Below are positions 16,469 through 56,362 of a stretch of 64,000 nt of DNA, in pieces; position 1 is the stretch's first letter, and each line of letters opens with the position of its first letter. The translations under genes were made by a program, and so were the position numbers. The stretch is from Bryobacteraceae bacterium (GTDB lineage: Bacteria > Acidobacteriota > Terriglobia > Bryobacterales > Bryobacteraceae): the NCBI GenBank assembly GCA_025055455.1, contig JANWXD010000002.1, positions 9,808 through 73,807 of the forward strand, written 5' to 3'. The notes under the pieces are model-generated. The model searched no databases. It had not been told where the DNA came from and saw only the letters and a list, made by a program, of their open reading frames with translations.

Positions 16469-17365
16469 ATGGCACGGCTGGGTTTTCTCGGGCTCGGGAT
16501 CATGGGCTATCCGATGGCCCGCAACCTGTTGCGCGCGGGCCACGAGGTCGCGCTCTGGTCTCACACGGCGGCCAAGGCCCGCCAGCTCGCCGCAGCGGAA
16601 AAAGGCGTTTTCTGCGAGACCCCCCGGCAGGTGGGCGAGTTCGCGGAGTGTTCGTTTTTGTGCGTCGGCGACACGGAGATGTCCGAGCGCGTCATTCTCG
16701 GCCCCGACGGAGTCGCCGCAGGCGCGCGGCCGGGCGCGGTGATCGTGGATTGCGGAACGATTTCACCGGACCGCAGCCGCCGCATCGGGCAAGAACTGGC
16801 CCAGCGGGGACTGCACTTGCTCGACGCGCCCTGCACGGGGTCGCGTCCCGGCGCCGAGGGCGGCACACTGACGTTCATGATCGGGGGCGACCGCGAGGTG
16901 TTCGAGCGGGTGCGGCCGTTTTTCGAGCCAATGGGCAAGCGCCTGTACTATTGCGGCGGACCGGGGATGGGCCTGCACGCCAAGCTGACCCAGAACCTCA
17001 TTCTTTGCAACATCATGCAGGCTTTTTGCGAAGGCATTGTGCTCAGCACCAAGGCCGGCGTGGATCCGCGGCTCATGCTGGACATTCTGTCCAACAGTGC
17101 GGCCAAGTGCGGCTTGATCGAGTTCAAGGCCCCGTATATTCTTCGCAGGGACTTCGGGGCCAACTTCTCGCTCAAGTGGATGCATAAAGACATCGAGCTC
17201 ATGCTGGAATCCGGCAAGCAGTTGGGGGTGCCTCTGCCGCTGACCAGCCTGACGCAGCAAATGTTTCGGGCCGCCATGGCCATAGGGAACCCGGAGGCCG
17301 ATTTCTGCTCTGCAATCAGGGTGTTAGAGCAATGGGCGGGGGTCGAGGTCCGGGCTGGGGACTGA
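16469..17365 (+). CDS. Beta-hydroxyacid dehydrogenase (3-hydroxyisobutyrate/tartronate semialdehyde type)
   Basis: A 298-residue NAD(P)-dependent enzyme of the 6-phosphogluconate/3-hydroxyisobutyrate family. The start MARLGFLGLGIMGYPMARNL carries the Rossmann GxGxxG; the substrate motif DAPCTGSRPGAEGGTLTFMIGG and the catalytic Lys in GPGMGLHAKLTQNLI follow at the usual spacing. Likely substrates are 3-hydroxyisobutyrate, tartronate semialdehyde, succinic semialdehyde or glyoxylate. Next to a divergent glyoxylate reductase-like gene, a joint role in small hydroxyacid turnover is possible but unproven. ATG 16469 has GGAGG six bases before it; an upstream TTG start is not needed. Confidence 0.9.
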   Translation: MARLGFLGLGIMGYPMARNLLRAGHEVALWSHTAAKARQLAAAEKGVFCETPRQVGEFAECSFLCVGDTEMSERVILGPDGVAAGARPGAVIVDCGTISPDRSRRIGQELAQRGLHLLDAPCTGSRPGAEGGTLTFMIGGDREVFERVRPFFEPMGKRLYYCGGPGMGLHAKLTQNLILCNIMQAFCEGIVLSTKAGVDPRLMLDILSNSAAKCGLIEFKAPYILRRDFGANFSLKWMHKDIELMLESGKQLGVPLPLTSLTQQMFRAAMAIGNPEADFCSAIRVLEQWAGVEVRAGD

Positions 17366-17392: not shown

Positions 17393-17421
17393 TTGCGTTC
17401 CCAAATTCGGTATTCTATAAT
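17393..17421 (+). promoter_or_regulatory. Strong sigma-70 promoter upstream of dxr
   Basis: TTGCGT (17393-17398) and a perfect TATAAT (17416-17421) are 17 bases apart in an AT-rich stretch that stands out from the surrounding DNA. The predicted start is near 17428, 143 bases before the dxr ATG, leaving a long structured leader. Confidence 0.75.
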
Positions 17422-17427
17422 TGGAAG

Positions 17428-17510
17428 TAAGCCGGGGAGGCAACTCCCACCAAAGCGAGACTAACCTCTAAAGACCCCTGAAGCAATTACCTCCCCGGCG
17501 CCCCCTGAAA
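17428..17510 (+). ncRNA. Candidate structured leader or small RNA upstream of dxr
   Basis: The transcript from the promoter at 17393-17421 would begin with a 10-base arm GCCGGGGAGG (17431-17440) that is perfectly complementary to CCTCCCCGGC (17490-17499), closing a 49-base interior. Part of the same 5' arm can instead fold locally as GGGAG-GCAA-CUCCC (17435-17448) with a GNRA-type tetraloop. The two pairings exclude each other. The interior is purine-rich and poor in G/C pairing, unlike flanking DNA. No riboswitch class is recognised. There is no U-run after the closing stem, so it is not a simple terminator. It could be a dxr leader element or a small RNA. Confidence 0.5.
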
Positions 17511-17570
17511 AGTTCCCCCCAATAGCCGCCGTGCTGATATGATTTCGTTGGGAACCGAGCGAGTCTTCCG

Positions 17571-18776
17571 ATGAAAACCATCACGCTGCTGGGGTCCACC
17601 GGTTCGATCGGGACGAGCACACTGGATGTGATCCGCCGCCGGCCGGAGCAGTACCGCGTCTTTGCGCTGGTGGCGGGGCGTAACGTCGAGGTGCTGGCGG
17701 CGCAAGTCGTCGAGTTCCGGCCGGAGGTGGCCGTCGTTGGGTCGGAGGAGGCACTGGACGAACTGGCGGCATGCTTGGACCGAGCCGGGCTGCCCCGAAC
17801 CGACTGGCCGGAGCTGGCTGCCGGGGATCGGGCGCGCGTCGAAGCGGCGACCGCGCCCGAGACGGACTTCGTCATGTCCGCCATCGTGGGCGTGGCCGGG
17901 TTGGAGGCAACCTATGAAGCCGTGCGCCGGGGCAAGACGGTGGGGCTGGCCAACAAAGAAGTGCTGGTGGCTGCCGGGGCGGTGGTGATGGAGGCGGCTC
18001 GTGCTTCTGGCGCGGAGCTGATCCCGGTGGACAGCGAGCACAACGGCGCCCACCAATGCCTTCGGGCCGGCCGCCGTTCGGAGGTCTCGCGCCTGATCTT
18101 GACCGCCTCCGGCGGCCCGTTCCGGAATACGCCGGTGGAGAAGCTGGCCACGGTCCGGCCGGAGGAGGCTTTGAATCACCCCACCTGGAGGATGGGCAAG
18201 CGCATCACGCTGGACTCTGCTACATTGATGAATAAGGGATTCGAAGTCATCGAGGCCTGCTGGCTGTTCGGCTTCTCTCCCTCCGAGGTGGAGGTGGTGA
18301 TCCATCCCCAGTCTACGGTCCACGCCCTGGTAGAGTTTCGGGACGGGAGCATCATCGCGCAGGCATCGGCCACGGACATGCGCATGCCGATTCAGTACGC
18401 TCTGACCTATCCGGAGCGGCAGGCCGCCCCTGTACCCAAGCTCGACTGGAGCCAGGCGCGTTGCTGGGAGTTCCACCCTCCGGACTTGAACAAGTTTCCG
18501 CTGTTGCGGCTGGCCTATCAAGCGTTCGAAGAGGGTGGCTCCGCGCCTTGCACGTTGAACGCCGCCGACGAGGTGGCCGCCGAAGCGTTTCTGAAAGGCC
18601 AGGCAGGCTTTCTGGAGATCGCCGAAATTGTCGAAGAGACGCTGGAGCGGGTGCCGCGGCGCCAGCCCACCTCCATTGGCGAGGTGCTCGAAGTGGACCG
18701 CGAGTCGCGCCGGGCGGCCCAGCGGATCGTAGAGCGACGAAGCGCCGGGCGGCGGGGACCGCTGGTCCGCAACTGA
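17571..18776 (+). CDS. dxr: 1-deoxy-D-xylulose 5-phosphate reductoisomerase
   Basis: Dxr (IspC) makes 2-C-methyl-D-erythritol 4-phosphate from DXP with NADPH, the first committed step of the MEP isoprenoid pathway. The 401-residue length is normal. Visible motifs are NADPH-binding LLGSTGSIGTSTLD (from residue 6), ANKEVLVAAG, the metal/substrate region PVDSEHNGAHQCL, ILTASGGPFR, and WRMGKRITLDSATLMNKGFEVIEA. The ribosome-binding site before ATG 17571 is weak. rseP follows eight bases after the stop, a common pairing in bacteria where isoprenoid and envelope genes cluster. Confidence 0.97.
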   Translation: MKTITLLGSTGSIGTSTLDVIRRRPEQYRVFALVAGRNVEVLAAQVVEFRPEVAVVGSEEALDELAACLDRAGLPRTDWPELAAGDRARVEAATAPETDFVMSAIVGVAGLEATYEAVRRGKTVGLANKEVLVAAGAVVMEAARASGAELIPVDSEHNGAHQCLRAGRRSEVSRLILTASGGPFRNTPVEKLATVRPEEALNHPTWRMGKRITLDSATLMNKGFEVIEACWLFGFSPSEVEVVIHPQSTVHALVEFRDGSIIAQASATDMRMPIQYALTYPERQAAPVPKLDWSQARCWEFHPPDLNKFPLLRLAYQAFEEGGSAPCTLNAADEVAAEAFLKGQAGFLEIAEIVEETLERVPRRQPTSIGEVLEVDRESRRAAQRIVERRSAGRRGPLVRN

Positions 18777-56284: not shown

Positions 56285-56362
56285 TGGTCGGGGCGAGTGG
56301 ATTTGAACCACCGACCTCCTGGTCCCGAACCAGGCGCTCTAGCCAGGCTGAGCCACGCCCCG
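56285..56362 (-). tRNA. tRNA-Pro(CGG)
   Basis: The minus strand folds as a normal cloverleaf: acceptor CGGGGCG/CGCCCCG, D-arm GCTC...GAGC, anticodon stem CCTGG/CCAGG with loop TTCGGGA (anticodon CGG), variable AGGTC, T-arm GGTGG-TTCAAAT-CCACT, discriminator A73 and an encoded CCA at 56285-56287. It reads codon CCG, a frequent proline codon at this GC content. Confidence 0.95.

Follow-up and report, generated by a model that had tools for sequence, protein, structure and literature searches.

NfeR1, an alpha-r14 RNA of rhizobia, is described in PMC10746234 as an anti-Shine-Dalgarno small RNA with three hairpins, each carrying CCUCCUCCC. The 6C RNA of Actinobacteria binds multiple mRNAs via C-rich loops in a chaperone-free manner, according to the title of a reference cited in PMC9569102 (ref. 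64). Acidobacteria or soil have also yielded candidate noncoding RNAs, among them Acido-1 (RF01686) and, in PMC2864571, Solibacter-1 and Soil-1; the latter two carry no Rfam accession. The annotation of Acidobacteria includes few small RNA families, four by the Rfam-based count in PMC9029176.

The element described here lies upstream of dxr in a window of 64,000 nucleotides (the whole stretch of DNA that was analysed), which is part of contig C68 of the 3.95 Mb genome G000. Like the alpha-r14 RNAs of PMC10746234, it would be a small trans-acting RNA in which conserved, unpaired motifs of the CCUCC type could mask ribosome-binding sites and the stems vary more than the motif. Unlike NfeR1 it has one stem, one large loop and dissimilar motifs, two of which are not enriched before starts. 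With 6C (PMC9569102) it shares the phylum- or order-wide distribution, the C-rich unpaired stretches and the extra copies in some genomes, whereas the loops of 6C are short C runs in hairpins; Rfam scans found no sequence relation between the two. By analogy the element perhaps works like alpha-r14 or 6C RNAs, and we claim membership of neither family. 6S RNA (RF00013) is likewise single-copy, conserved and equipped with its own promoter, but it forms a long rod with a central bubble, whereas the present RNA, of about 80-110 nt, has an open loop above a single 10-bp stem.

The original prediction recognised no known riboswitch class, and an Rfam 15 scan agreed: no family reached its gathering cut-off for the element. 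The best sub-threshold scores (17.4, 15 and 10.4 bits) are far below the cut-offs, and identity with a known riboswitch or RNA family was rejected on these grounds. Acido-1 gave a score of only 10.3 bits against a cut-off of 50, and this in a single relative on the antisense strand. RF00013 matches occur at separate sites in 27 of 61 relatives, five of them above the cut-off, and the element itself has no RF00013 match; identity with 6S RNA was thus rejected. The weak matches in many relatives suggest that the 6S model fits this order poorly. In G000 a 6S-like RNA (G000:C123:92962-93146) scores 32.5 bits, below the Rfam cut-off. The sole Rfam match in the window is a tRNA (56288-56362, minus strand). 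Identity of the element with Solibacter-1 or Soil-1 is conceivable; a literature search on acidobacterial or Bryobacter small RNAs and on the motif names found no description of it.

The features of the locus are as follows (window coordinates, all on the plus strand).
16469..17365, plus strand: upstream neighbour, a 3-hydroxyisobutyrate / 6-phosphogluconate dehydrogenase-like protein (Pfam PF03446, PF14833).
17393..17398, plus strand: -35 hexamer TTGCGT of the small RNA promoter (from the sequence; TTGC.. conserved in relatives).
17416..17426, plus strand: -10 hexamer TATAAT (17416-17421) and discriminator TGGAA (from the sequence and its conservation in relatives).
17429..17505, plus strand: predicted small RNA (covariance model R1/R2 match G000:C68:27236-27326).
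17431..17440, plus strand: 5′ arm of stem P1 (covariation).
17435..17448, plus strand: competing hairpin P2, formed by GGGAG (17435-17439), GCAA (17440-17443) and CUCCC (17444-17448) (from the sequence).
17441..17468, plus strand: first near-invariant loop segment CAACUCCCACCAAAGCGAGACUAACCUC (CACCAAAGCGAGACTAACCTC exact in 96/97 distinct f1/f2 RNAs).
17469..17471, plus strand: variable A-rich linker (in relatives 3-11 nt before GACCCC, 73% A).
17472..17485, plus strand: second invariant loop segment AGACCCCUGAAGCA (exact in 97/97 distinct f1/f2 RNAs).
17490..17499, plus strand: 3′ arm of stem P1 (covariation).
17535..17543, plus strand: probable separate dxr promoter, extended -10 TGATATGAT (recurs before dxr in relatives).
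17571..18776, plus strand: downstream neighbour dxr (open reading frame; homologue in 59/61 relatives).

The promoter postulated originally, TTGCGT and TATAAT separated by 17 nt, is present at the predicted coordinates and is conserved in relatives. The 17-nt spacer recurs in 86 of 97 distinct f1/f2 promoters, in which TANNAT is followed by TGGAA. A simple promoter scan called no site here; TTGCGT agrees with TTGACA at only three of six positions. The 5′ start of the RNA was placed from the promoter and a conserved AAGCC, and is a prediction. The promoter spacer of f3 members (e.g. L075, L068) contains a conserved CTATGRA-type element, possibly a regulator site. An operator-like inverted repeat (TTCC..GGAA) spans the promoter in some relatives; it is not constant and was dropped as a candidate.

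Stem P1 is, as predicted, a perfect 10-bp stem around a 49-nt interior. The 78-nt stem-loop is more stable than expected by chance (z -2.93), a fold matched by 1 of 200 shuffles, whereas the fold of the whole supposed dxr leader (17428-17570, 143 nt) is no better than chance (z -0.55). Lack of covariation in relatives had been named beforehand as an outcome that would speak against the stem, and P1 passed this check. In an alignment of 58 rows (57 distinct) fitted to P1, 99.6% of the cells pair and six of the ten base pairs show two-sided change. The cells with two-sided change number 27, against 5.1 in shuffles, the covariation score was reached by none of 500 shuffles, and slid versions of P1 were all far worse. 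In a MAFFT alignment built without structure (A1) P1 is 100% paired, with three two-sided pairs. After reduction of 138 copies to 113 distinct RNAs (identical 90-nt RNAs counted once), P1 is part of the minimum-energy fold of all 113.

Hairpin P2, proposed as the alternative to P1 in a two-state switch, is compatible with most sequences, pairing in 95.4% of the cells, mostly because the sequence there does not vary. Two-sided change is seen at only one of its pairs, and 7 of 57 rows cannot form the closing pair. In the RNA of the window it is 6.5 kcal/mol worse, with a pair probability of about 1e-5 to 3e-5. On these three counts an equilibrium switch between P1 and P2 was rejected; P2 may still be a folding intermediate, at most.

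A search of 61 genomes with the dxr protein yielded 30 loci, one being that of the window. Of the 29 others, from relatives, 24 have the RNA next to dxr, with a core identical letter for letter; in L020 (genome G008) it is inverted. In the other five (L008, L009, L010, L012 and L014, from G036, G021, G019, G028 and G016, respectively) it is located away from dxr, on another contig. Covariance model R1, built from 25 sequences, finds the RNA in 55 of the 61 genomes, as a single copy in each: in 55 of the 57 members of the same order and in none of four genomes outside it. By family the counts are 36/37 (f1), 2/2 (f2) and 17/18 (f3), against 0/4 in other orders of the class. In a phylum sample R1 matched 3 of 396 genomes, all f1, although with ten candidates scored per genome weak matches could be lost. 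Model R2 (58 sequences) matched 73 of 299 genomes in a class sample, all of the same order; none matched outside it, and the same-family misses listed are G664 and G670. Viral contigs gave no match, and a phage origin was rejected on that account.

The exact core was found in at least 119 named contig stretches. The names among the matches listed are Bryobacterales, Bryobacteraceae, Solibacteraceae, Candidatus Sulfopaludibacter, Solibacter and general acidobacterial names. One record among them is labelled Acidimicrobiia (L145, VFZE01000003.1); the RNA adjoins dxr there and the label is doubtful. The name of the order rests on these record titles. The usual copy number is one per genome. L100 and L163 hold two copies each, and G596 has three tandem copies within about 1 kb (L246, G596:C3:39000-43500); all these repeated copies have a promoter, P1 and the small hairpin P3. 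The linked copies L127, L128 and L169 come from the same genomes as L069, L068 and L067.

Conservation is concentrated in the loop. In pairwise comparisons of 97 distinct f1/f2 RNAs the 25-nt core is on average 99.7% identical, whereas positions 110-150 reach 25%, and AGACCCCTGAAGCA is exact in all 97. In f3 the core has diverged, yet GACCCCTGA is kept in 14 of 16 RNAs and CTAA(N)CCTC also in 14 of 16. P3 follows P1 in 73 of the 113 distinct RNAs (9.5 expected), with the loops GAAA, GCAA, GUAA, UUCG, UCU or UUU; T-enriched positions come after it in most f1 members. In g39 a strong hairpin and a T-run occur on the 3′ side of the RNA, and the window's copy is devoid of P3.

Beyond P3, 111 tails reduced to 100 clusters were compared with the core. 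Six-mers complementary to the core number 104, against 40 ± 7 expected (0 of 200 shuffles), an excess that is inflated by relatedness. The controls, as seen versus expected, were 87 versus 91 for the core itself, 31 versus 37 for its complement and 116 versus 90 for the reversed core, the last being mildly high. The contributors GGTCTT, GTCTCG, TGCTTC and GAGGTT answer to different core pieces in different lineages. These complementarities suggest that in many relatives the tail could pair with the core as a pseudoknotted self-lock, presumably of the H-type if P1 is formed at the same time. This does not extend to the window's copy, whose tail has no core complement beyond chance (best run 4 nt).

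We consider an order-wide trans-acting regulatory RNA, separate from dxr control, the best explanation of the data as a whole, at a probability of roughly 0.45. Its own strong sigma-70-type promoter would drive the small RNA, independently of dxr control where the two are adjacent. P1 would hold open a loop in which near-invariant single-stranded CUCCCACCAAAGCGAGACUAACCUC and AGACCCCUGAAGCA are joined by a variable A-rich linker. The C-rich loop segments might then pair briefly with several mRNAs in trans, perhaps assisted by Hfq, and in many relatives a 3′ tail with a short core complement would close the loop as a pseudoknot and so regulate or tune the RNA. Transcription, trans action and base pairing to mRNA are steps that we infer, and for pairing to mRNA as the mechanism the balance of probability is already slightly unfavourable.

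Signs of such pairing were sought before putative start codons, in rRNA and genome-wide. Upstream of 414 putative genes with roughly assigned starts, complements of UAACCUC were found 4-20 nt before the first ATG at 0.070 versus 0.014 further upstream, and complements of the 3′ arm of P1 at 0.150 versus 0.060; those of CTCCCACC, AGACCCCTGA, CAAAGCGAGA and CTGAAGCA were not enriched before the same ATGs. The piece most like an anti-Shine-Dalgarno sequence is locked inside P1. In 37 genomes, 12-mer complements of three core segments hit the RNA gene and scattered sites, with no excess over a backwards control, and a long antisense match to one conserved target was rejected for this reason. Five rRNA sequences (three LSU and two SSU, from G008, G596 and G040) had no complementary run of 10 or more; 8- and 9-mers only were present, at about chance frequency.

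A strong Hfq match was obtained in 30 of 41 tested relatives. It is present in f1, f2, g41 and g43, and missing in nine genomes of g39, one of g42 (G047) and the incomplete G016. The f3 genomes without a strong match number ten (L038-L052: G038, G040-G043, G045-G047, G051 and G052). The RNA is retained in all ten of these order members; its core is intact in G047 and has diverged in the nine of g39. Because G047 keeps the core without a strong Hfq match, Hfq dependence is one clade-level coincidence at best.

Before the function is weighed further, the position of the RNA relative to its neighbours has to be considered, since it was originally read as the leader of dxr, with P1 and GGGAG-GCAA-CUCCC as mutually exclusive folds. 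Among the 138 copies (a context count in which genomes overlap between two collections), dxr is downstream on the same strand in 89, which agrees with a leader, and the window's copy has no terminator-like hairpin after P1, so that read-through into dxr is possible there. However, six copies point away from a divergent dxr on their other side, and the other 43 either show neither arrangement of dxr over 700 nt or run into the edge of the locus. The distance to dxr ranges from 39 to 688 nt, one genome has the three tandem copies, and P2 is energetically out of reach. Moreover, in the window's family dxr seems to be served by a separate extended -10 promoter, TGNTATNAT, a short distance ahead of its start codon: 23 of 30 regions have TGNTANNAT within 90 nt upstream of dxr (0.39 expected from shuffles), including four of the five relatives whose RNA is located elsewhere. 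We rejected the leader, or riboswitch, because of the orientation and location of the copies, their tandem occurrence and the promoter of dxr, and now regard it as very improbable. The upstream side offers an equally improbable candidate, a 3′ UTR-type RNA of the dehydrogenase gene that would regulate genes of that pathway. In 98 of the 138 copies (80 + 15 + 3) the dehydrogenase gene immediately precedes the RNA on the same strand, but the f3 genus g39 has a putative cyclase (PF04199) there, with a cytochrome c-like protein and a TPP enzyme among its neighbours, and others have unrelated genes; the six reversed copies and the RNA's own promoter also speak against it. A small RNA, raised originally as a side remark, is supported by the promoter, the covariation and the location independent of dxr. 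With its own predicted promoter, a conserved structure and no tie to one gene, the element is almost certainly a free-standing gene for a small noncoding RNA, found in one order of acidobacteria; sequence comparison established its independence from dxr as well as P1, the conserved loop and the complementary tails.

That it is an RNA at all was set against chance or a feature of the DNA, such as a protein-binding palindrome or the end of a mobile element. P1 is a near-palindrome, and L002 reaches 20 bits on its antisense strand, but the compensatory changes, the strand-specific promoter, the single copy, the strict loop conservation and the lack of matches in viral contigs leave this reading barely credible. 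The nature of the partner is more contested. About 40 nt of invariance exceeds the needs of a pairing seed, and the loop could instead be a surface bound by, for instance, an RNA-binding protein, RNA polymerase or the ribosome, with P1, P3 and the tail only presenting or hiding it. The length of near-invariant unpaired sequence, the single copy, the strong conserved promoter and the failure of any long antisense match to recur all fit a protein- or ribonucleoprotein-binding RNA. On the other side, the separate 6S-like RNA in 27 of 61 relatives, including G000, means that the element is not simply a 6S replacement there, and tail segments complementary to different core pieces fit base pairing as well; we rate this account as possible, on the doubtful side. 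As a class, therefore, a trans-acting RNA has good support, pairing to mRNA is the leading mechanism without being a strong one, and a protein partner is its main rival. A more speculative idea, which we hold to be unlikely, is an order-wide RNA of housekeeping type: its near-invariant open loop would bind one essential, conserved partner, and a 'wandering' pseudoknot would be formed by its 3′ tail. Tails would acquire complements of different loop pieces in each clade (GGGUCUU-AAGACCC, GUCUCGC-GCGAGAC, UGCUUC-GAAGCA and GAGGUU-AACCUC), so that the self-lock is kept while its address moves.

The trans-acting RNA that we favour carries a caution for annotation: what looks like a conserved 'leader' of an adjoining metabolic gene can turn out to be an RNA gene in its own right. 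It is present in nearly every examined genome of the order, and its loop is conserved like that of a core RNA. Its near-universal presence there and its conserved loop make it a direct way into the study of RNA regulation in soil bacteria that are common but hard to culture.
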